Positions 51,196 to 63,750 of a DNA stretch of 64,000 nucleotides are shown one piece after another (the first letter of the stretch is position 1; the number at the start of each line of letters is the position of its first letter). The notes beneath the pieces are model-generated. The model was not told the origin of the DNA. It worked only from the letters and a program-made list of their open reading frames with translations, and searched no databases. The position numbers and the translations under genes are program-made. This stretch comes from Rhodopseudomonas boonkerdii (GTDB taxonomy: Bacteria; Pseudomonadota; Alphaproteobacteria; Rhizobiales; Xanthobacteraceae): assembly GCF_021184025.1 (NCBI RefSeq), contig NZ_CP036537.1:2852001-2916000 (forward strand), written 5' to 3'.

Positions 51196-51778
51196 CAAAC
51201 TCAAAGTCCTCCGGCCGGCGATCGTTCCACCCGGATGAGGGAATTCCCAGGACGTGCATGAGACCGCAGGCTCGCGGTAAAGTTCAGCCAAATTAAGACG
51301 GGTTTCGGCGACGTGTCGGTCTCCGTGCGGGGATACTGGCACACCGCCACGCCGCGCATGAGATGCGCGGACAATGGTCCGTACAGAGCGTAGCGCTTCT
51401 TCGATAGGATCTACCGATGTGACCGCATCGGACGGACGGGTCTCCGTAACCGCGGCCCGTCCATCGATGCCGGCTTGGTTGAGCAGTCGCTTCGCGTTGC
51501 CCGCGAACAGTTGCAGCAACGCGAATCTCTTCGGCCATAGCCGGATCGTGCTCCCATCTTCGGTACGAAGTTTACCTCGGCCGAGATCGTAGCCAGCGAG
51601 GCTGGGTACGATGACGCCTTGATGTCACACATGTTTTACGCGCTCTGACGGCAAATATCAGAAAATTTTCAGAATGTCATGACTGAACCATCGAGACTTC
51701 AATTGCAGCGCTCTGCCATTGTGCTCTGCCATCCGTCGCACAGGCGGGTTGCAGTTCTGCGGCACTGTTGGACGCGTC
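51196..51778. other. Long intergenic region upstream of the two-partner secretion genes
   Basis: 583 bases with no gene I can support. Open frames on both strands are Arg/Ser-rich composition shadows. The last 130 bases are AT-richer (TTTTACGCG near 51634, then AAATATCAGAAAATTTTCAG at 51654-51673, which holds a GAAAATTTTC palindrome) and probably contain the tpsB promoter. Confidence 0.5.
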
Positions 51779-53614
51779 ATGCTTTTGAAGTGGAAATCTC
51801 CTGCTTGCGTGGTGGCCTTGTCCTGGGCATCGACGGCTTGGGTATTGATCGGCATCGCCCTCGTGGCATCGCCGCAGTCAGCCGTCGCCCAGACCGCCTC
51901 GCAGATCACGCCGCGTTCATTCGAGCCGTCACTGCAGGGGCGGGGCGGGGGCCTTGTGATTCCGCAAGGCGCCGGGCCAGAGGCGCCGATTGGTGCGGAC
52001 AGGCTGTCGGTTCGGATCAAGGCGGTGCGCATTGACGGTGGCTTGCCGGCGCTGGCCGAGAAGGAGCGTGAGATCCGCGCGTCGCTGGTCGGACGCAAGG
52101 TCAGCGCGGCAGAGCTGTTCAATGCCGCGAAGCAACTGGAACTGGCCTATGTTGCCGCCGGCTATGGCCTGGTGCGGGTGGTGCTGCCGGCGCAGCGCCT
52201 CCTCGATGGCGCCACGTTGCGGCTACAGGTGATCGACGGCTTCGTCGAACGGCTTGATACGTCGCGGTTGCCACCAGCCATTCGCGAGCGCATCACCACG
52301 CTGCTGACGCCATTGGTCGGTCACCGCGGTATCCTGCTTCGCGACATCGAACGCAAGCTGCTGTTGGCCGGCGACCTGCCGGGCACCGTGCTGCGCTCGA
52401 CGCTGGCGCCCGGCAGCGCACCGGGAGGGGGCGTGCTGGTGATCGAGGCGCGCTTCAAGCCGGTCACCGGCTTCGTTTCTCTCGACAATACGTTGTCGCA
52501 GTCGCTTGGGCGGTACAGCGTCAATGCCGGCCTCGACATCAATTCGCCGACCGGCCATGGCGAACTGATCTATCTGCGCACCGGCGGGCTGCCCTGGGCG
52601 CGCGGCGACGCCGCCTTCACCGAGGCCCAGCCGCGCAACCGGTTGCTGGCGGCGGGCGTGACGCTACCGCTGGGCGATAACGGGCTGACGCTGAATCTGG
52701 AAGCCACCGACGCCCGCGCCACGCCGATCGCGGCGGCGGGCAGTCTCGGCATCACCTCTGATTTCAAACGCTATTCGACGCGACTGCGCTATCCGGTGCT
52801 GCGCGGACGCGAGCTGACGCTCAATCTCGAGGCAGGCTTCGACGCGCAGGACGATCAGGTCACCGTGATTACCCCGCTGGTGCAGGGCCTGTCACTCGAC
52901 CGGCTGCGCATCGTGCGCGCCGGCGGCGACCTGAGCTGGTTCGCGCCCAATAACGCGCTGGTGACGGCGCGGTTGGCCGGCTCGTTTGGTATCGATGGCC
53001 TCGGCGCGCGCAATGCGCCGCCGGTCGGCTCCCTCGACGTGCCTCTGTCGCGCGACGGCACCAGGCCCGACTTCCAGAAGCTGGAGGCGCAGTTCGGCTA
53101 TAACCAGCCGCTGATTGATCATCTGACGCTGGATCTGCGCGCGCGGGCGCAGACCTCGTTCGGACAGCCGCTGGCCCGCTCGGAGCAGATCGGCCTGGCC
53201 AGCAGTACCGCGCTGTCCACTTTCGATGCCGGCCTGATCCAGGGCGACGCCGGTTATGTCATCCGCGGCGAAACCCAATTTCCGTTCGCCACCTCGTTGA
53301 CGCTACCCTTCGCTGTGCCGAGCCTGCCGCCACAACAGGGCTCCGGCCTGCCGGCCGGCGACACCACGCCCGGCGCCATGGTGCTGACACCCTATGCGTT
53401 CGGCGCTTTCGGTCAGGTCACTTTGGAAAAGCCGTCGGCGCTGGAAATCCCCACGATACGCGGCTCGTCCTATGGCGTCGGCCTGCGCCTCGGGGCCGCG
53501 CCGCAATCCAGCTTCAGCGCCATCAATATTGGCATCGAATACGGCCGCTATGAGCGCTCCACCGGCCTCGGCAGCGGCGATCGCCTGACCTTTAGCACCG
53601 CCTTCCAGTTCTGA
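51779..53614 (+). CDS. Two-partner secretion transporter TpsB (ShlB/FhaC/HecB family)
   Basis: 611-residue outer-membrane pore that secretes the TpsA protein encoded next. Signal peptide with an extended basic start (ACVVALSWASTAWVLIGIAL, then SAVAQT). A Pro-rich plug region is followed by a POTRA domain (RIKAVRIDGGLPALAEKERE, then AAKQLELAYVAAGYGLVRVV) and a 16-stranded barrel ending in aromatic FSTAFQF. The conserved loop-6 motif is present as DAGYVIRGETQFPF (VRGY/E-type). The stop is 10 bases before the TpsA start, so one operon. It appears intact. Confidence 0.93.
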   Translation: MLLKWKSPACVVALSWASTAWVLIGIALVASPQSAVAQTASQITPRSFEPSLQGRGGGLVIPQGAGPEAPIGADRLSVRIKAVRIDGGLPALAEKEREIRASLVGRKVSAAELFNAAKQLELAYVAAGYGLVRVVLPAQRLLDGATLRLQVIDGFVERLDTSRLPPAIRERITTLLTPLVGHRGILLRDIERKLLLAGDLPGTVLRSTLAPGSAPGGGVLVIEARFKPVTGFVSLDNTLSQSLGRYSVNAGLDINSPTGHGELIYLRTGGLPWARGDAAFTEAQPRNRLLAAGVTLPLGDNGLTLNLEATDARATPIAAAGSLGITSDFKRYSTRLRYPVLRGRELTLNLEAGFDAQDDQVTVITPLVQGLSLDRLRIVRAGGDLSWFAPNNALVTARLAGSFGIDGLGARNAPPVGSLDVPLSRDGTRPDFQKLEAQFGYNQPLIDHLTLDLRARAQTSFGQPLARSEQIGLASSTALSTFDAGLIQGDAGYVIRGETQFPFATSLTLPFAVPSLPPQQGSGLPAGDTTPGAMVLTPYAFGAFGQVTLEKPSALEIPTIRGSSYGVGLRLGAAPQSSFSAINIGIEYGRYERSTGLGSGDRLTFSTAFQF

Positions 53615-53624
53615 GGACCGATCA

Positions 53625-56231
53625 ATGACGGCTTCCCGTACCCGTAACAATGGCCCGCGACTGGCTCATTTTGCGGCAGCGCTGCTGACCTCCACGATGC
53701 TGTCGGGCGTGCCGCTGGCCTTCGCGCAGACGCTGCCGACCGGCGGCAGCGTTGCGGCGGGCAGTGCCACGATAACCACGCCGAGCAATGGCGCGCTGAC
53801 GGTGACGCAGTCGTCGTCCTCCGCGGTGGTGAACTGGCAGAGCTTTTCGGTGGCGCAGGGTAATGCCGTCAACTTCGTGCAGCCGTCGAGCACATCGGCG
53901 ATCCTGAACCGCGTGACGGGATCGGCGACCTCCACCATCGCCGGCCAGATCAACGCCAACGGACAGGTCTATCTGGTCAACCCCAACGGTATCGCCATCA
54001 CTTCCACTGGCACGGTGAACGCTGCGGGCTTCGTCGCCTCGACGCTCGGAATCTCCGACAGCGACTTCATGAGCGGCAAGCGGACGTTCACCGGCAACGG
54101 CGCCTCAGCGAGTGTGAGCAATGCCGGCAGCATCACCATCGGGCGCGGTGGCTATGCCGCGCTGCTCGGCGGCAGCGTCGATAATGCCGGCACTATCACC
54201 GTGCCGCTCGGCAAGGTTGGTCTCGGCTCTGGTGAGCAGGCGACACTCGATTTGTCCGGCGACGGTTTTATGCAGGTCGCGATGCCGACCAATGCGACCG
54301 GCAGCAGCGCGCTTGTCAGTAACAGCGGCAGGATTTCCGCCAATGGCGGCAGTGTGCAGCTCTCAGCCGCCGCCGCGCGCGACATGGCGCGGCAGGCGAT
54401 CAATATGTCCGGCACCATCGAGGCCAGGAGCGTCGGCGGGCGCAACGGCGCAATTATCCTCGGCGGTTCGGACGGCGCAGTCGCCGTCTCCGGCAAGCTC
54501 AATGTCTCCTCGCGCAAAGCGAAGGGTGGTAGCATCGCCGTCACCGGCCGCGACATCAAGCTGGCCGGGGCGACGCTTGAGGCATCCGGCAAGATCGGCG
54601 GCGGCACGGTCAGGATCGGCGGCAACCGGCAGGGGCAGGGCACGCTGCAGCGCGCGGAGACCACGACGGTCGATGCTGCGACGACGATCAAAGCGGATGC
54701 GACCTCCATGGGCAATGGGGGCGACGTGGTGGTGTGGTCGGACGGCACGACCGCTGTCTATGGCACGATCTCGGCGCGCGGCGGCAAAAACGGCGGCGAC
54801 GGCGGACAGATCGAAACCTCGGGCCATACCCTCGACTTCGCCGGCATCCGCGTGGATGCGTCGGCCTTCAAGGGCGCGGCGGGAACATGGCTGCTCGATC
54901 CGATCGACCTGATCGTCGATGCGACCGCCGCCGCGACCATCAACAGCGCGCTGGGTGGTGGCACCGGCGTCACCTTACAGACCTTCGCCAGTAGCGCGCC
55001 GAGCGGTTCCGGCTCCACCGCAGCCGGCAACGGCGACATCATCATCAATTCCAGCCTCGGCTGGTCCACCAGCGCGGTGCTAACGCTGAACGCCCACAAT
55101 GCCATCTCCATCAACGCTGCGATCAATGTCCGCGGCGCGGGTGGCGTTTCGCTGGTCTACAACACAGCGTCACCGACCAACCTGACGTTCAACAACGGCG
55201 CATCGATCGATTACGGCGCGACCGACAACGGCGGTGCGCTCAGCGTCAACGGCAACGCTTACACGCTGCTGTACTCGATGACTGATATCGCCGGCATGAG
55301 CACCAGCGGCCACTCGGCGCTTGCGACCGACCTGATATCGATGACCAGCTACACGGCGGCGGTGGTCGGAGGAACATTTGATGGAACCTTCGAAGGCCTC
55401 GGCCACACGATCTCGAACCTCACGATCAACAGCACGGCAAGCGGCGAGTTAGTTGGCCTGTTTCGCTATGCGACCGGCACCATCCGCGATATCGGCCTGG
55501 TAGGCGGATCGATTTCCGCCGGTACCTCGTCATATGTCGGTGCGCTCGTGGGGGGGCTCGGGGCGGGCAGCTCGCCCTCATACGTCGTGAATTCCTACGC
55601 GACTGCCAACGTTACGGGCGGCGATCAATCCAACGTCGGTGGATTAATCGGCGAAACCTATGCTTACCAAGACGCCCCCACGGTGGTGGCGAATTCCTAC
55701 AGCACCGGAAACGTCACGACCGGGGTCTCGGGATACGCCGGTGGTCTCGTCGGCCAGCAGGTTGCGTACTTCAATAGCGCCAGTGCAACGATCAGCGGAT
55801 CTCACGCGACCGGCACCGTTACGGGCGGCAGCAACGCTGTGCTGGGCGGCCTTGTCGGCAGCAACAGTAGCAATCCCACCGGGATTGCGACGATCACCGG
55901 CTCTTACGCGACCGGCGCGGTTATCGGAACGACCGCAAGTTCGGTCGGAGGGCTGGTCGGCAGCAACACCACCAACGCCGGCATCAGCTCGATCTCAGGG
56001 TCTTTCGCGACCGGCGCGGTCAACGGCGGCGCGGTCGCAAACGGCGGTCTGGTCGGCTCCAACACCGGCGGAGGTGCAGCGGGCATCGGGTCGATTACTG
56101 ATTCCTACGCGACCGGCGCGGTGACGGGGGGGGGGAGCAGGTTACAACGGCGGACTGGTGGGATGGAATCTCGGCAACGGCAGCGGCGCCGTCGCGTCCA
56201 TCACCACCTCCTATGCGACGGGCAGTGTTAG
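53625..56231 (+). CDS. TpsA-type filamentous hemagglutinin-like exoprotein, N-terminal part as currently in frame
   Basis: 868 codons as written. A signal peptide (LAHFAAALLTSTMLSGVPLA, then FAQ) precedes the TPS secretion domain (residues about 36-280) with the canonical NGQVYLVNPNGI motif (NPNG box), recognised by the partner TpsB. Then come beta-helix repeats and the first GLUG-type repeat module (SYATANVTGGDQSNVGGLIG, SYATGAVIGTTASSVGGLVG). At 56126-56135 a run of ten Gs shifts the frame; the last ~35 residues (SRLQRRTGGMESRQRQ...) are junk and stop at 56231. With nine Gs the frame continues TGGGAGYNGGLVGWN into the next entry. The visible product could be secreted but would lack two thirds of the protein. 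Confidence 0.88.
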   Translation: MTASRTRNNGPRLAHFAAALLTSTMLSGVPLAFAQTLPTGGSVAAGSATITTPSNGALTVTQSSSSAVVNWQSFSVAQGNAVNFVQPSSTSAILNRVTGSATSTIAGQINANGQVYLVNPNGIAITSTGTVNAAGFVASTLGISDSDFMSGKRTFTGNGASASVSNAGSITIGRGGYAALLGGSVDNAGTITVPLGKVGLGSGEQATLDLSGDGFMQVAMPTNATGSSALVSNSGRISANGGSVQLSAAAARDMARQAINMSGTIEARSVGGRNGAIILGGSDGAVAVSGKLNVSSRKAKGGSIAVTGRDIKLAGATLEASGKIGGGTVRIGGNRQGQGTLQRAETTTVDAATTIKADATSMGNGGDVVVWSDGTTAVYGTISARGGKNGGDGGQIETSGHTLDFAGIRVDASAFKGAAGTWLLDPIDLIVDATAAATINSALGGGTGVTLQTFASSAPSGSGSTAAGNGDIIINSSLGWSTSAVLTLNAHNAISINAAINVRGAGGVSLVYNTASPTNLTFNNGASIDYGATDNGGALSVNGNAYTLLYSMTDIAGMSTSGHSALATDLISMTSYTAAVVGGTFDGTFEGLGHTISNLTINSTASGELVGLFRYATGTIRDIGLVGGSISAGTSSYVGALVGGLGAGSSPSYVVNSYATANVTGGDQSNVGGLIGETYAYQDAPTVVANSYSTGNVTTGVSGYAGGLVGQQVAYFNSASATISGSHATGTVTGGSNAVLGGLVGSNSSNPTGIATITGSYATGAVIGTTASSVGGLVGSNTTNAGISSISGSFATGAVNGGAVANGGLVGSNTGGGAAGIGSITDSYATGAVTGGGSRLQRRTGGMESRQRQRRRRVHHHLLCDGQC
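53700..54880 (+). other. TPS secretion domain and adjoining beta-helix coding region
   Basis: The part of TpsA that the TpsB partner recognises and threads outward, containing the NPNG box (coded near 53970-53985). It is followed by GGxxxxSG-type repeats (VRIGGNRQGQGTLQRAETTT, GGKNGGDGGQIETSGHTLDF). It lies wholly upstream of the G tract, so it is made in either phase. Confidence 0.7.
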
Positions 56232-59200
56232 CACCACAGGCTATGGCGGCACGGGTGGGCTGGTCGGCCGAAATCAAAACCTCAGCGGCGGCACCACGTC
56301 GATTATCAGTAGCTACTGGGATGTATCGACGAGCGGCATTCCTGCCTTGGGGATCGGCAACGACACAAACGGCCAGAGCGGCAATGTCATCGGCGTGACC
56401 ACCGCGCAGTTCCAGAGCGGCTCGTTGCCGACGGGCTTTTCATCCTCGGTCTGGGGCACCGGTGCGGGACTCTATCCTTATCTGACCAGCATCTTCGCAC
56501 ACGGTGTGCAGGCGGTGTCGGGCACCGTCTACAGCGATCTGGGCACGACCCCGCTTGCTTCGGGTACGAACGGAGCAGTGGGCGTGACCGTGATCGGCGC
56601 AAACGCAACACTCGGCACCGTGACGGCGGGTGCCAATGGCTATTATTATGCGTTCGGCGCGGCCGGCACCATCGCCAACGGCGCTGGCCTGGTCGCTTAT
56701 ACGACGCAGAACGGCTCGACCGGCGCGACAAATGCGGCGCGGATCGCAACCTCGACATATTCGTCCGGCACGCCGTCGCAGACTGGCGTCGACATCTACG
56801 AGCCTGTCACGCTTCTCACGGCGAGCACGAGTGCGACGACGCTCTCGGCGTCGGGCTACAATCCGAATTCGACACCGGCCGTGCCCACAGGTTCGACGCT
56901 GCCGTCCTTCCTCAATGGTGCGATCCCAACACTGGCTGCAACGAACAGCGGCGGCTTTACAATCGATCAGACGCTGGACCTCACCAGCAGCTTCGGCGTG
57001 CAGACGACAGCCGGCGCGCCATTGACGGTCGCCAACGCGATGACGGTGGAGAGTGGCGCCAGTCTCGGCCTCATGACCTCCGGCCAGCTTTTCATCAGTG
57101 CGCCGGTCACGGTGAAGGGCGCCGGCGCGGTCACGCTCACCTATAACAGCGCCTTCGCCGGCAATCTTTCCTTCGGCCTGACCGGTGCCGGATTCACCGG
57201 CCGGCTCAGCTATGTGAGCAGCGACGGCACCCCCGCGACCTCAAACCAGGGCGGTGCGCTCACCATCAATGGCACGGGCTACACGCTGCTCTATTCGATG
57301 GCGGACGTGACCAACATCAACACGCTGGATCTCTTCGGAAAATATGCGCTTGCCAACAGTCTCGATGCATCGGGCACGACCTATACCGGCGCCCTGATTG
57401 GCACCGGCGTCGACGGCAATTCCATCTTCCGCGGCAGATTCGACGGCCTTGGCCATACCATCAGCAACCTGACCATCGCCACGAGCGGGGACTACGCAGG
57501 ACTGTTCGGATTTGCCTACGGAACCATTCAGAACGTCGGATTGGTCGGAGGATCGGTCACTGGCACTCAACACGTCGGTAGCCTCATCGGCTCGCTCAGC
57601 TACGGCACGATCACCAACGTTTATGCGACGGGATCGGTCCGCGGGACCACCTACGTTGGCGGTCTTATCGGCTTGGCCGACACGATCAACTCGATCACCA
57701 GCGCCTACGCTACCGGAACTGTCACGGGAACCGACAGTTACGCCGGCGGCCTCATCGGATTTCTCTATAACTACAGCTCACTCGCGAACTCCTATGCTAC
57801 GGGCGCGGTCGCCGGAAACCAGTACGTCGGCGGTCTTGTCGGAGCGAACCTCAACCTGAGTCCGATATCCAACGTCTATGCAACGGGCGCGGTCATCGGG
57901 GGCAGCTACGTGGGCGGCCTGTCGGGATGGATCGGGAGCAGCGACACTACCAATGCTTATGCAATGGGCGCGGTCATCGGAGGCGCCTACGTCGGCGGAC
58001 TCGCGGGAGGAAACGGCAATGGGCGGACGATCAGCAACTCGTATTGGGACATTCAGACGACCGGGCAGGCGATGGCCTTCGGTTTCGACGGCAACGGCCA
58101 GTCGGGCAATATCACCGGTCTGACGACGGCGCAGTTCCAGACGCCGAACGCAGCCGCCTATCTCGGGCCGGCCTTCGCCGGCGGTGCCGGTCTGTACCCC
58201 TATCTCCAGAGCTTTTTTCCGAACGGCGTGCAGGCGATCTCCGGCATGGCGTATAACAATGCGGGCACGACGCCGGCGGCTTCGGGCGCGAATGGTGCCG
58301 TCACAGTGACAGCCTTCGCCAATGGCACCGGCTTCGGATCGGCCACGACCGGCGCGAACGGCTATTACTATATTATGGGCGCGGCGGGCTCGATTGCATC
58401 GGGCAATTCACTGCTCACCTATACCAGCGCCAACGCCGCAACCGGAACGACCAATTCGGCGAGGCTCGGCACGGCGACGAGCGCAGCCAATCAATCCGGC
58501 CTCGATCTCTACGGCAATGCGGTGACCGTGGTGACAACGTCGACAACGCTCAGCGCCGCGCCGACATTCAGCGCCGCACAGGCCAGCGCCATCGCAGCGA
58601 TAGGCAGCGACGCAACGGCGACGGCGGTGATTAACGCCATCACAGGCCAAGGTTTTATCGCGAGCGGTGCGAGCTTCACCATCGACCAGACGGTCGATAC
58701 GGCGGGCCCATTCTACGTGCAGACGACCGCCGCCAGTGCTCCGATTACGGTGGCGAATTCCATCACCATCGAGACCGGCGGTAGCCTCAGCCTCAACGCC
58801 GCCGGCGCGCTTAACCTCCATGCGCCGATCACGGTGAAGGGCGCAGGCGGCGTCGCGCTCGGGTACAACAGCTCATCGGCCACCAATTTTTCGTTCGGAC
58901 TGACGGGCTCGGGCTTCATCAGCCAGCTCACTTTTCTGGATGCCAGCGGAAATGGGCTAACCTCCGCGCCCGGCAATCAGAGCCTGTCGATCAATGGCAC
59001 TGCCTACGCGCTCCTCTACACGATGGCGGATGTGGCGAATGTCACGTCTGCGGGGCTTGCCGGTAATTATGCGCTCGCCAACAGCCTCGATGCCGCGGGC
59101 ACGACCTATAGTGATGCGCTGATCGGCCCGAACAGCGGCAATATCTTTAGCGGCGTGTTCCAGGGTCTTGGCCATACGATCAGCAATCTCACGATTGCGA

Positions 59201-60240
59201 AGAACGGTGACAATGTGGGGCTCATCGGTTACAGCAGCGGCCTCATCCAGAACATCGGGCTGGTCAACGCTTCGGTGTCTGAAACGAATTCCTTCGGGCG
59301 CTACGTCGGCGGCCTTGTCGGGTACCAGTCCGGCAATACAATCACCAATACATACGTCACCGGCGCCGTGAGAGGTGGTAGTAACACCGGCGGCCTCGTC
59401 GGGTATCTGAACGGCGGTTCGATCGTTCAGGCTTATTCCTCTGCGATGGTCAGCGGAACCACGGCTGTTGGCGGCCTTGCAGGGTATGTCGGCGGCACTG
59501 TCAGCACGGCCTATGCGACGGGTGCGGTCACCGCCACCGGCGACAACGCAGGTGGACTGATCGGCGTGACCGACTCGTCTACTTATGCAGCCAGCGTCAC
59601 CGACGCATACGCCACGGGTGCCGTTCTTGCCGGCAATCGCGTCGGCGGGCTCATCGGGTTCTCGTTCGGAAGCCTCAACAATGTCTACGCGACTGGCGCA
59701 GTCAGCGGTGGCGGTGCCGGCGGCCTCGTCGGCTATGCATATGGTGGCTCCATCGGCAACGCCTATTGGGACATCGACACGACCGGTACGTCTACGGTCA
59801 TCGCAAACGATCCGAACGGGCTTTCGAGCAATATCACCGTCCGGACGACAGCGCAGTTCCAGACGTTGGCCGCGACTAGCGCTCTCGGCGCGGCCTTTGG
59901 CGGCGGCGCGGGCCTCTACCCCTACCTCAGAAGCTTCTTCCCCAATGGCGTGCAGGCGATCTCCGGTGTGGCCTATACCGATGGCGGCGCGACGGTGCTC
60001 GGCTCGGGCGTAAGTGGCGCGGGGCTGGTCAATGTCCGCGTCGGCAGCGGCGCTGTGCAGACGGTGACGACCGGGGTCAACGGTTACTATTATGCCATCG
60101 TGCCATACGGCTCGATCGACACGACGAACGGCAGCAATGTGCTCGCCTTTACGCAGGCCAACGCCAATACCGGCGCGGCTGATGGCTCCGCGTTCCGAAC
60201 AGCCGCGATGGGAACGCTCGCCAATTTCGACGTGTCCGGC
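55081..60240 (+). repeat. Three tandem ~1.72-kb coding modules in tpsA
   Basis: Shared landmarks recur at regular spacing: LYPYL near 56470, 58191 and 59920; LLY(S/T)M near 55270, 57288 and 59012; HTISNLTI near 55404, 57456 and 59173; FTIDQT near 56955 and 58675. Modules 2 and 3 are about 1.72 kb each; module 1 is about 0.3 kb longer because of extra GLUG repeats. The copies are diverged, not identical. Confidence 0.85.
56126..56135 (+). repeat. G10 homopolymer causing the TpsA frameshift
   Basis: Ten consecutive Gs inside a GLUG repeat codon string (ACG-GGG-GGG-GGG-AGC). Removing one G reads T-G-G-G-A-G-Y-N-G-G-L-V-G, exactly the repeat consensus. Poly-G tracts of this length are known slipped-strand hotspots in phase-variable genes of other bacteria and are also prone to sequencing error. 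Confidence 0.9.
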
Positions 60241-61887
60241 GGTTGGCGGCGTGACACGACCGCTCTCAGCACACTGTCGATACTGGATGCGGCTTATGCG
60301 ACATCGACTACTGGGACGAGCGCCTCGAGCCTCACGCTCGCCAATCGCTCGATCTTCGCAGTTACTGATTTCTCCTTCGACACCGCGCTCTCGCTCACCG
60401 GCACGCTCAATCTGTCGAGCACGGGTACCGTCACGCAATCGGCGGCCATTTCCGCCGGCACGTTGATGTTGCAGGGGGGCGGTAACACGTTCACGCTGAC
60501 AAATGCCGGCAACCAGTTCAGCCAGTTTGTGGCCGCCGGCGGGACAATCAACCTATATAACGCCGGCAATCTGACGATTGCGGCGAGCGCCACCGATGCC
60601 TGCAATTGTACGCTCGCCGGCGTCTCTGGCGACGGGATCCAGATTGCGACGGCGGGCGATTTGACGATTGCCGCCGGCGCCTCAATCTCGGGCACGTCGC
60701 CGGTGCTCGCGGCCAGCGGAGCCTTCCTCAACTACGCCGGATCAAACGCGGTCACGGCGACCTCCGGCCGCTGGTTGATCTATTCGGCAGACTCCGCCGG
60801 CAATACGTTCGGCGGTCTCGATAGCAATAATACAGCCATCTGGAACACGGCCGCAGGCGGCAACGTCACGGCAGCAGGCAACCGCTACGTCTTCGCATCC
60901 GGGCGCACGCTGACGGTCACCACGTTGAATGACAGCAAGACCTATGGCGAGGATATCACCGGTCGTGTCGCGACTGATTATGTGATCACCGGGTTCGCTC
61001 CTGGCGTTGCCGGCGCCTATCTGGCCGATACCGCATCGACCGCCTATAGCGGCACAGCCAGCGTCACGTCACCCGGCGCGGCCGGGACGGCCAGCGTGGC
61101 CGGCTCGACCTATGCGATCACGGCGGCCTTGGGATCGCTCGCCTCGAATGTTGGCTATGGCTTCGCCTTCGCCAATTCGGGCACTCTGACGGTCAACCGG
61201 CGCGGCATCACCGTCACCGCCGATCCCAAGTCGCGCATCTATGGCGAAGCCAATCCGGCGCTGACTTATGTCGTCGGCGGTCTGGGCCTCGTCAATGGCG
61301 ACACGCTTTCGGGGGCGCTCACTACGCTGGCGACGGGAACGTCCAATGTCGGCAGCTACGGCATCACGCAAGGCTCGCTCGCGGCCTCGTCGAACTATGC
61401 GCTGACCTATGTCGGTGCAGATCTCGACGTCGCGGTGCGGGACCTGAGGGTGACTGCCGATTCCAAGTCGCGCATCTATGGTGACGCCAATCCGGCGCTG
61501 ACCTACGCCATCGGCGGGCTCGGCCTGATCAACGGTGATTTGCTGTCGGGCGCGCTGGCAACCGACGCTGATCGCAACAGTATTGCGGGACGTTACGCCA
61601 TCAACCGTGGCAACCTGTCGGCGTCTGCGAACTATGCCGTGACCTTCGTGCCGGGCACGCTCACCATCAATGCGGTGATCAATCCACCAAGCACGGACCT
61701 GGCCAGCACGGCGGCGAGTAGCATGCCAGCCGGCGCGACCATCACCGCCGCAATGCTGCCGGTGGTTGTGTCGCCGCCGTCCGCGAGTGGTTCCGCCAAT
61801 GGCTCCGGCAGCATAGTGATATCAGCCGATCCGCGCTTCGACGGCGTCGTGATCTGCAGTGGCCTCAACTGTGTCGTTGCTCAGTAA
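56158..61887 (+). CDS. TpsA exoprotein, C-terminal part (out of frame with its start)
   Basis: 1909 codons that continue the TpsA protein if one G is lost from the G10 tract. The ATG at 56158 (MGWNLGNGSG) is an internal Met with no ribosome site or signal peptide, so this frame should not be made alone. Contents are GLUG repeats, then two further modules of about 573 residues. Each module opens FTIDQT(L/V)D and passes through INGT(G/A)Y(T/A)LLY(S/T)MADV and GLGHTISNLTI. It then carries GLUG repeats and the block TTAQFQ...GLYPYL..FFPNGVQAISG. After the modules come one YDG-like segment (SKTYGEDITGRVATDYVITG) and two MBG-like repeats (SRIYGEANPALTYVVGGLGL and SRIYGDANPALTYAIGGLGL). The C-terminus has a Cys pair (VICSGLNCVVAQ). 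The full repaired protein is about 2753 residues. Confidence 0.85.
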   Translation: MGWNLGNGSGAVASITTSYATGSVSTTGYGGTGGLVGRNQNLSGGTTSIISSYWDVSTSGIPALGIGNDTNGQSGNVIGVTTAQFQSGSLPTGFSSSVWGTGAGLYPYLTSIFAHGVQAVSGTVYSDLGTTPLASGTNGAVGVTVIGANATLGTVTAGANGYYYAFGAAGTIANGAGLVAYTTQNGSTGATNAARIATSTYSSGTPSQTGVDIYEPVTLLTASTSATTLSASGYNPNSTPAVPTGSTLPSFLNGAIPTLAATNSGGFTIDQTLDLTSSFGVQTTAGAPLTVANAMTVESGASLGLMTSGQLFISAPVTVKGAGAVTLTYNSAFAGNLSFGLTGAGFTGRLSYVSSDGTPATSNQGGALTINGTGYTLLYSMADVTNINTLDLFGKYALANSLDASGTTYTGALIGTGVDGNSIFRGRFDGLGHTISNLTIATSGDYAGLFGFAYGTIQNVGLVGGSVTGTQHVGSLIGSLSYGTITNVYATGSVRGTTYVGGLIGLADTINSITSAYATGTVTGTDSYAGGLIGFLYNYSSLANSYATGAVAGNQYVGGLVGANLNLSPISNVYATGAVIGGSYVGGLSGWIGSSDTTNAYAMGAVIGGAYVGGLAGGNGNGRTISNSYWDIQTTGQAMAFGFDGNGQSGNITGLTTAQFQTPNAAAYLGPAFAGGAGLYPYLQSFFPNGVQAISGMAYNNAGTTPAASGANGAVTVTAFANGTGFGSATTGANGYYYIMGAAGSIASGNSLLTYTSANAATGTTNSARLGTATSAANQSGLDLYGNAVTVVTTSTTLSAAPTFSAAQASAIAAIGSDATATAVINAITGQGFIASGASFTIDQTVDTAGPFYVQTTAASAPITVANSITIETGGSLSLNAAGALNLHAPITVKGAGGVALGYNSSSATNFSFGLTGSGFISQLTFLDASGNGLTSAPGNQSLSINGTAYALLYTMADVANVTSAGLAGNYALANSLDAAGTTYSDALIGPNSGNIFSGVFQGLGHTISNLTIAKNGDNVGLIGYSSGLIQNIGLVNASVSETNSFGRYVGGLVGYQSGNTITNTYVTGAVRGGSNTGGLVGYLNGGSIVQAYSSAMVSGTTAVGGLAGYVGGTVSTAYATGAVTATGDNAGGLIGVTDSSTYAASVTDAYATGAVLAGNRVGGLIGFSFGSLNNVYATGAVSGGGAGGLVGYAYGGSIGNAYWDIDTTGTSTVIANDPNGLSSNITVRTTAQFQTLAATSALGAAFGGGAGLYPYLRSFFPNGVQAISGVAYTDGGATVLGSGVSGAGLVNVRVGSGAVQTVTTGVNGYYYAIVPYGSIDTTNGSNVLAFTQANANTGAADGSAFRTAAMGTLANFDVSGGWRRDTTALSTLSILDAAYATSTTGTSASSLTLANRSIFAVTDFSFDTALSLTGTLNLSSTGTVTQSAAISAGTLMLQGGGNTFTLTNAGNQFSQFVAAGGTINLYNAGNLTIAASATDACNCTLAGVSGDGIQIATAGDLTIAAGASISGTSPVLAASGAFLNYAGSNAVTATSGRWLIYSADSAGNTFGGLDSNNTAIWNTAAGGNVTAAGNRYVFASGRTLTVTTLNDSKTYGEDITGRVATDYVITGFAPGVAGAYLADTASTAYSGTASVTSPGAAGTASVAGSTYAITAALGSLASNVGYGFAFANSGTLTVNRRGITVTADPKSRIYGEANPALTYVVGGLGLVNGDTLSGALTTLATGTSNVGSYGITQGSLAASSNYALTYVGADLDVAVRDLRVTADSKSRIYGDANPALTYAIGGLGLINGDLLSGALATDADRNSIAGRYAINRGNLSASANYAVTFVPGTLTINAVINPPSTDLASTAASSMPAGATITAAMLPVVVSPPSASGSANGSGSIVISADPRFDGVVICSGLNCVVAQ

Positions 61888-61955
61888 AGCCACGGCCATG
61901 ATGCGAAGCCTCTCCACGACAAGGGAATGATCAATGAGAGGCGTCTAGACGTCTC

Positions 61956-62343
61956 ATGCTCCTGTCGCCGTGCTCGGCGCAACGATGTTGCTGCTTGCGC
62001 TCGGCGCGTGCACCGGAGCCGCGGGGGGGGGCAGGGTGCCGTTAGGCCGGCCAGCGCGGGCACCGGCGCCTGCTGCGAGCAGAGCCGACCGCCGCCACCG
62101 CCCGTTTCGGGGATTGGGTGCTGCGCTGTCAGAGCCTCGGCGAAGGCGAGGCGGGGGCGCACCCTTGCGAGGTGGTGCAGGTGCAAGGTTAAAAGACGCA
62201 GATCGCCATCGGCCGCGCCGCAGCGGGCGAACCGCTGCGCGTCACCCTGGCGCTGCTGCCGTATCTGTCGTTCCCGCAGGTGGTCGGTGACTGCAACGGC
62301 TCGGTGCTCGATCTGCCGTGGCGGCGTTGCCTGCCTGGAACCA
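61956..62343 (+). pseudogene. Decayed ialB-family gene (invasion-associated locus B)
   Basis: Remnant of an IalB-type periplasmic protein. In one frame the family blocks can be read as FGDWVLRCQSLGEGE, CEVVQVQG, a TAA stop at 62190-62192, then KTQIAIGRAAAGEPLRVTL and LDLPWRRCLPG. The stop is one C-to-T change from CAA (Gln), the residue expected in QVQGQKT. The hydrophobic N-terminus (VLGATMLLLALGACTGAA) is in a different frame, separated by a nine-G run (62023-62031) and another in-frame TAG, so at least one frameshift is needed. The usual C-terminal GGCF block is missing: homology ends just before the convergent regulator stop. It lies 70 bases after tpsA. An apparently intact relative begins at 63751. 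Confidence 0.75.
62023..62031 (+). repeat. G9 homopolymer in the decayed ialB
   Basis: Nine consecutive Gs just after the signal-like segment. This is the second poly-G tract in 6 kb, the other being G10 in tpsA. Changing its length by one does not by itself restore an open frame, because a TAG follows. Confidence 0.85.
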
Positions 62344-63495
62344 TCACCTATTCACGAAACCGGCCAAAAGCGCGACAAGTTCTGTTTGTCGGTTAACTCC
62401 AGTTTTCTGAAAGATCTTTTGCAGATGAGTTTTCACTGTAGCTTGGGACAGGCCCAGAACATCAGCCATATCCTTTATGCTACCGCCCTTTAGTAGAGCA
62501 TCGACGACTTTCGTTTCGCTTGAAGTCAACTGATAAAGCCTGGAGAGCGTCTCGATGGGGGCGGGTGCTTCTCGCACTCTCTTCCTGACGAACACTGCTG
62601 CGGTCGCGGATTGCAGGCCACTGGCTGATTGCCGGCTTCCGGAAGTCAGCGGCAGCACATGAGCATACCAACGCTCCAGGGCTGGCGCGGACAGCGGAAC
62701 AGCAACGCCGCGGACGCCGACGGACGAGTAGTCGAGTTCCGGCACAGCAAGCAACTCGTGGAGCATTCGGTTCGCGTCCGGCAGCACCGCCACAAGCGAT
62801 TGATTGTCTTTCCGCAAGAGTGTCGCGTCCTGCAACAGCAGTTCGGCCGGTGCATTCTGAAACAGGATCTGACCATTTCGATCGACTAGAAATACGCTGG
62901 CTTCGATATGGTCGAGTGTCTGAGTCAGGACACTGCGAACCGCATCCTGTTGATCGAACAGTCGTCCGATGGCAACGGCGCGCTGCAGATGGGGAACGAG
63001 TAGCTGAAGTCGCCGCCGGCACTGGTCGTCCACAAGGCCGTCGGTCACATTCATGCGGATGCTGATCATCGAGGAGCGCATAATGCCCTTCTCGAGATTG
63101 ACCGAGACGGCGTCGATGATGCCCTGCGGCTGAATCCACTCCTTGTAAAAGCGGGTTTCTTCGAGCTCTTGCTGCGGGAGAATGTCGCGACTGGTGTGAA
63201 CTAGCCCTTCTTCAACAAAAGTGGCCGCCGGAAACATCGGATTCATCGAAACATACTTGTCGAAATACAAGTGTGTGAAGTACGGGTCTTCGTTGAAGAC
63301 GTGCAGCGCTTGAGAACTGACGCTGGCCGAGTCATGCCAAAAGATAGCGGCCGATGATCCGCCGACAAAGGCGCAAATACTCGCAAGCGCCTTTTGCCAG
63401 ACGCCAGGGGCGATTGCGGCATCATAGATATCGGCGATCGCATTAGAGAGTTCGATCGCCTCCGATACTTCCGTTGCATGGTTGCGAACGGTCAT
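62344..63495 (-). CDS. LuxR-family transcriptional regulator
   Basis: 383-residue regulator. The N-terminal two thirds has no named domain that I can fix but contains a PAS-like stretch (FLVDRNGQILFQNAPAELLL). The C-terminal HTH of the LuxR/FixJ type is LTSSETKVVDALLKGGSIKD followed by VLGLSQATVKTHLQKIFQKT, with the usual Glu and the VKTHLQKI recognition helix. No receiver domain and no autoinducer-binding signature is evident. ATG 63495 (MTVRNHATEV) is chosen over a TTG at 63531. It is divergent from the intact ialB-family gene and convergent with the decayed one, so it may control that gene. Confidence 0.88.
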   Translation of the reverse strand: MTVRNHATEVSEAIELSNAIADIYDAAIAPGVWQKALASICAFVGGSSAAIFWHDSASVSSQALHVFNEDPYFTHLYFDKYVSMNPMFPAATFVEEGLVHTSRDILPQQELEETRFYKEWIQPQGIIDAVSVNLEKGIMRSSMISIRMNVTDGLVDDQCRRRLQLLVPHLQRAVAIGRLFDQQDAVRSVLTQTLDHIEASVFLVDRNGQILFQNAPAELLLQDATLLRKDNQSLVAVLPDANRMLHELLAVPELDYSSVGVRGVAVPLSAPALERWYAHVLPLTSGSRQSASGLQSATAAVFVRKRVREAPAPIETLSRLYQLTSSETKVVDALLKGGSIKDMADVLGLSQATVKTHLQKIFQKTGVNRQTELVALLAGFVNR

Positions 63496-63750
63496 GCTGG
63501 AAAGGCTTTTCCGCAGGAGAAAATCTGACAACCGAAAAGTGACGAGAGACTAGAAAAGCCTATCATCGACACGCGAATTGACCAAACTCGGTTAGTGCAT
63601 CACTACGATGTATCGAACGAGGAGGCCCAAGCGACATTCTGCATAGCGCTTCGGTCAAGCCGTGTGCGCGTTTGTGTACTATGATGAGGCGAACGAACTT
63701 CGATAGGTTACTGCATCCGCGTTCATTTCAAACAACGGTGATGTTTCTCC

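Follow-up and report, generated by a model that had tools for sequence, protein, structure and literature searches.

A run of ten Gs at the frame break of a TpsA-type gene, a candidate slippage switch in an alphaproteobacterium

Contingency genes of Neisseria, Helicobacter and Campylobacter carry poly-G tracts whose length decides whether a full-length or a truncated surface product is made, and the genomes of these bacteria contain many such loci. The nearest precedent that we found for the locus described here is the fhaB gene of Bordetella pertussis. According to the available text of PMC7446907, its wild-type allele has 10 Gs and the G9 and G11 alleles introduce stops, mixtures of tract lengths were present in all 49 of the 49 isolates studied, and FHA was seen on western blots only in populations with mostly wild-type fhaB alleles. 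The fhaB run has 10 bases in B. pertussis versus 3 and 2 in two other compared genomes, and some long runs are invariant among strains, as given in the available part of PMC1891110. Gogol et al. (2007) observed that Taq polymerase by itself generates length variants of a G10 tract. By this precedent, a lineage-specific switching G-run in a TpsA gene is of a known kind. No example of a poly-G contingency gene from an alphaproteobacterium was found in searches of an open-access library, as judged by titles and abstract openings.

In the window, that is the whole stretch of 64,000 nucleotides that was analysed, the tpsB gene is followed after 10 bases by tpsA, which spans 53625-61887 as a whole and is broken into two frames (Table 1). 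In P0241, the best TpsB relative, the start lies 20 codons further in, and there are 6 differences in 611 aa; P0241 bears no source label, which is the tool's sign for a window-encoded protein, yet it differs from the window at these 6 residues. The TPS secretion domain of tpsA (PF05860) was located by Pfam at residues 34-293 of the 868-aa product (E 8.2e-36). By its predicted domains the pair is of the TpsA/FHA type, with an N-terminal TPS domain and an adjoining TpsB carrying POTRA and ShlB domains, and export of the tpsA product through the cognate TpsB is predicted. The position of the domain bears out the statement of the sequence-only reading that the truncated product would still keep its secretion domain. 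The restriction of FHA to populations in which wild-type alleles dominate speaks against a stable exported fragment.

Table 1. Location of the tpsB-tpsA pair, of its G-runs and of other TpsA-like frames. Coordinates are those of the window unless G000 is indicated.
Feature	Coordinates	Strand	Description	Evidence
tpsB	51719..53614	+	631 aa from TTG, outer-membrane transporter, intact	POTRA_2 and ShlB Pfam matches
tpsA upstream frame	53625..56231	+	truncated 868-aa product	TPS domain and GLUG motif
tpsA downstream frame	56125..61887	+	1920 open codons	GLUG and MBG_2 domains (Pfam)
G7 run	55550..55556	+	upstream part of tpsA, in frame	
G10 run	56126..56135	+	frame-break site, inside a GLUG-like repeat	repeat judged by eye
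TpsA-like frames	G000 577000-595000, 2950000-2989000, 3142000-3156000, 3773000-3787000, 4269000-4284000			

The upstream frame of tpsA reads from the ATG at 53625 to a stop at 56229-56231, and its last 31 codons, located 3' of the G10 run, are off-frame. The downstream frame, which is +1 relative to the upstream one, has its own TGA at 56122-56124 and is open from 56125 through 61884, up to the stop at 61885-61887. As this TGA lies directly 5' of the run, the frame change can be narrowed to 56125-56231. Reading in the third frame lasts for 86 codons past the run. The downstream frame as an independent gene was also considered and was rejected: it has no start codon before the GTG at 56158, which gives an ORF of 1909 aa, no signal sequence was seen by eye, and in the intact counterpart P0003 it forms one piece with the upstream part.

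P0003 was found with the downstream piece alone as query, in a search in which 7998 candidates were scored and the best 120 of 1207 matches were listed, and it showed 99% identity over the full piece. It is an intact version of 2753 aa and stands for a cluster of 7 member sequences from 5 contigs with the source labelled lgn. Its residues 1-832 align with the upstream piece with 6 differences and its residues 845-2753 with the downstream piece with 9 differences, or 0.5% at the amino-acid level. Since P0003 is continuous at the run and both alignments are gapless, the break was placed at the G10 run, and no other lesion was found in tpsA with respect to P0003. Both the frame geometry and this continuity confirm the claim, made initially from the letters alone, that the tpsA frame breaks at the G10 tract; the stop-free stretch of about 1900 codons that had been announced for the downstream frame also held, as 1920 open codons were counted. 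The spread of the differences suggests that P0003 comes from a sister lineage rather than from the same isolate.

One truncated assembly, that of the window, and one full-length protein cluster, P0003, are on record, the latter as a protein only; an assembly error would look alike. A near-identical truncated form was absent among the best 120 of 2096 matches to the 868-aa product, the best of which were 67-69% identical. A full-length form known elsewhere together with a truncated form not found is predicted alike by switching, by a fresh null and by an assembly miscount. The phase variation proposed in the sequence-only reading stood in part: it is favoured by the frame geometry and by the near-identical intact P0003, but an assembly error or a fresh null would predict an intact allele just as well.

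The isolate's run could in fact be in-frame and tpsA intact, with the homopolymer having been miscounted in assembly or base calling. Such an error would agree with three points: miscounts are most to be expected in long homopolymers, no product but the full-length one was found elsewhere among the matches listed, and the downstream frame is without relaxation. Against it, the G-runs of 6-7 within tpsA keep the frame, and the genome has seven other TpsA-like frames, six of 3322-4444 aa and one of 1486 aa, none with an internal stop; two of these frames are situated within 80 kb of the tpsA locus. However, no G-run of at least 8 was found in these seven frames, so that their soundness says little on a run of ten; two of the seven were fetched over their whole length, and no run longer than 7 is present in the portions fetched for the seven frames. 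We consider a miscount to be rather unlikely.

The run was then compared with the other G-runs of the genome (a single contig of 5.63 Mb, both strands), which has 66 of exactly 7 bases, 3 of 8, 3 of 9, 1 of 10, 3 of 11, 1 of 12 and 1 of 17. A first-order Markov estimate obtained from the window gave about 144 runs of at least 8 Gs versus 12 seen and about 35 of at least 9 versus 9 seen. Runs of exactly 8 Gs were far fewer than expected (3 versus about 108), and those of at least 10 were near expectation (6 versus about 9). This pattern of lengths would fit slippage growth once a run exceeds a threshold. Within the window itself, runs of 8 Gs as such are unsurprising, with 5 overlapping matches versus 2.27 expected and the value of 5 reached in 12 of 100 shuffles. 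When the tpsA pieces were codon-resampled with the run left out, a G-run of at least 9 appeared in 3.2% and one of at least 10 in 0.8% of 2000 simulations, which sets the run apart from the codon use of the gene itself. The sister repeats of tpsA (9 found by motif) have G-runs of at most 5, and two of them, with the same Val-Thr-Gly-Gly residues, encode these with ACG GGC GGC.

Coding signal around the runs was evaluated with a codon score whose table was trained on the long ORFs of the window, including tpsA itself, at thresholds of 0.15 for the runs of this genome and 0.1 for those of other genomes of the genus. Only the tpsA run, among the 12 genome G-runs of at least 8, had coding signal on both sides, and it did so with a frame change. 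Eight of the nine runs of at least 9 Gs lacked the signal on at least one side, and two of the 30 G7 runs scored (from 66) were coding on both sides, in both cases in the same frame. In the rest of the genus, 28 loci were collected with at most 2 matches per genome; 6 were dropped as the run was not near the middle, and the remaining 22 rows, 4 of which repeated the same run, left 18 distinct runs of at least 9 from 14 other genomes, all non-coding on at least one side. Since G-runs of these lengths are almost never coding on both sides, they seem not to be tolerated in genes, although one such coding run per genome is within chance. With the codon score, 9 frame changes on the same strand showed up in the window, that of tpsA among them, and the other 8 were taken as gene borders.

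The surroundings of the remaining long runs were also inspected. Ten genes next to the seven long runs outside the window were scanned, and 8 of them have Pfam matches, for the most part to metabolic or regulatory families: histidinol dehydrogenase, M20 peptidase, CoA-transferase, acyl-CoA dehydrogenase, a LysR regulator and DUF2948, in addition to one HlyD-type and one methyltransferase-glycosyltransferase gene. As the runs are mostly non-coding and the neighbours with a Pfam match mostly ordinary, there is no suite of contingency or surface genes. The longest G-run of the genome, of 17 Gs (L148 3003-3019, G000 5539502-5539518), has no coding signal and is flanked by the HlyD-type gene and the acyl-CoA dehydrogenase gene. 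A run of 11 Gs (L145 3030-3040, G000 2004629-2004639) lies about 25 bases 5' of a possible GTG start of a gene without Pfam match, divergent from the methyltransferase-glycosyltransferase gene. This run is inside the longest possible ORF of a gene, scores as non-coding and probably precedes the true start. We regard it as a candidate length switch of the promoter type, close to glycan genes.

Relatives of the downstream piece were found in several alphaproteobacteria. Its best local identity was 61% to P0004 (Rhizobium sp. LEGMi135b), 61% to P0005 (Rhizobium hainanense) and 47% to P0007 (Azospirillum brasilense), in matches covering 71-81% of the piece. These alphaproteobacterial MBG/GLUG-type TpsA proteins have TPS, GLUG and MBG_2 domains in common with tpsA. 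In the relatives aligned with P0003, the repeat containing the run corresponds to a gap in 8 of 9 and to other residues in the ninth (P0008), in an alignment that is uncertain at the repeat. A search of viral_contigs gave no match.

Within the genus, the downstream piece was matched in 4 of 17 other species with at most 58% identity and each time over part of the query, and the pattern of motif plus run was found in none of the 17 other genomes. In the family, the pattern of GLUG motif plus at least 7 Gs, which detects only runs directly 3' of that motif, was present in 2 of 391 genomes, namely in tpsA and in one unrelated gene. The latter (G057, L113) was rejected as a recurrent GLUG run, since the gene is unrelated and its G8 keeps the frame. 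Among the fetched TpsA relatives (L038-L071), and leaving aside the window's own loci, the only runs of at least 7 were a C7 in G016, present in two loci that overlap, and a G9 in L070 that lies beyond the match, apparently between genes. As no second such gene was found with this pattern in the 391 family genomes, this is not an ancient contingency locus, and the run seems to have arisen recently in this lineage.

A recent loss of function, in which tpsA was inactivated at the run and is a young pseudogene without switching, has to be weighed against the state of the downstream frame. In a direct count, a stop arises from 2.3% of the single-base changes in this frame. If all changes are equally frequent, the probability of finding no stop has dropped to one half after 30 neutral substitutions (0.5%) and to 5% after 128 (2.2%); with transitions weighted fourfold, these values are reached at 40 and 174 substitutions. 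As a dead frame could drift about 2% without acquiring a stop, the clean frame says only that the shift is recent. Consequently, the earlier argument from the clean frame to translation is a weak one, and the 1909-codon frame is compatible with neutral drift after a loss. Amino-acid changes with respect to P0003 were 9 in 1909 after the run and 6 in 832 before it (Fisher p 0.41), a comparison with little power. By these estimates the downstream frame is young as out-of-frame sequence.

A young null would also agree with the seven other TpsA-like frames, which might cover for tpsA, with the stretch that follows tpsA (about 61890-62360), which by eye resembles degraded coding sequence and contains another long G-run, and with the parallel of the B. 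pertussis gene BP0059, for which the available part of PMC1891110 gives truncation at a homopolymer in every strain assayed except one. However, the further disabling changes and relaxed constraint expected of a pseudogene were not seen: there is no second lesion in the 1920 downstream codons, stop-free throughout, or in tpsB. In addition, reversion at a run of this length would presumably be frequent. Altogether, we regard inactivation without switching as improbable.

The stretch after tpsA deserves a separate description. It occupies 61890-62360, between tpsA and a LuxR-type gene (62344-63531, minus strand), and appears by eye to be the remnant of a coding sequence in decay, in which a G9 (62023-62031) and a stop in frame are present; its residues recall an IalB-type protein. 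Regarding this identity, two short pieces of it had no Pfam match, and a genome-wide IalB search gave four other places, the remnant not being among them. A weak similarity over 30 aa (E 0.012) was obtained between the remnant and one IalB gene. Just past the end of the window (G000 2916006) is the start of an IalB gene.

The two products could also be made with no change in the DNA, in a fixed ratio, by RNA polymerase slippage or by +1 ribosomal frameshifting on the G-run. The +1 position of the downstream frame is a shift that slippage on the run can give, and transcriptional frameshifting rescues the interrupted tssM, a secretion gene of Citrobacter rodentium, as described in the available text of PMC4256274. 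However, the bacterial genome survey of PMC1088944 concerns A and T runs in the part available, and P0003 is full-length without need of any frameshift. Such an RNA-level origin seems very improbable.

A coding homopolymer of such length is usually highly mutable, and for this reason slippage switching is the most likely reading, ahead of an assembly miscount and of a young null. We thus propose, as somewhat more probable than improbable, that the run is a slippage-prone, lineage-specific coding G-run which would let tpsA alternate between full-length and truncated forms. Replication slippage would alter the run length one base at a time and so switch tpsA from a secreted adhesin of full length to a truncated product of about 868 aa, which keeps the TPS secretion domain, and back; the window assembly would then have the truncated-state length and the sister lineage of P0003 the full-length state. 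We infer that the assembled length is real, that cells would switch, that the short form may be exported and that switching would be useful and not just a by-product of the run. Regarding the features of a contingency gene, tpsA has a long simple repeat (G10) in its coding sequence, and its frame is open or truncated by the repeat length with no other lesion, as indicated by the colinearity with P0003; a repeat at the same site in related species, which would be supporting and is not required, was not found.

A wider reading, of which we are more doubtful than convinced, is possible. An alphaproteobacterium, as judged by the named protein relatives, would switch a 2753-aa adhesin between the full-length form and an exported N-terminal fragment by means of a young single-gene poly-G locus, whose origin within a GLUG repeat would be independent of the Bordetella fhaB run; the 11-G run near glycan genes might be a second, promoter-type locus.

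Should tract lengths turn out to vary in culture, tpsA would represent an alphaproteobacterial poly-G contingency gene convergent with fhaB, and the acquisition of length-switch runs by TpsA genes of separate lineages would be suggested. Should the reads give an in-frame length, the locus would illustrate how a single-contig assembly can mimic a pseudogene at a homopolymer.

Compared with Neisseria, Helicobacter and Campylobacter, with their many loci, here a single run of at least 8 Gs is coding on both sides in 5.63 Mb. The comparison with fhaB shows differences as well as likenesses. Ten Gs are the in-frame wild type in fhaB, whereas in tpsA they are out of frame; the mixtures were measured in 49 isolates for the former and the latter is known from one assembly. 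The fhaB run is located at nucleotides 1078-1088 of 10773, whereas that of tpsA is found among GLUG repeats, at about base 2502 of 8263. Nevertheless, both are very long genes of the TpsA type with a coding poly-G run of about ten bases in which another length leads to early stops, and the fhaB run is lineage-specific, as that of tpsA appears to be.
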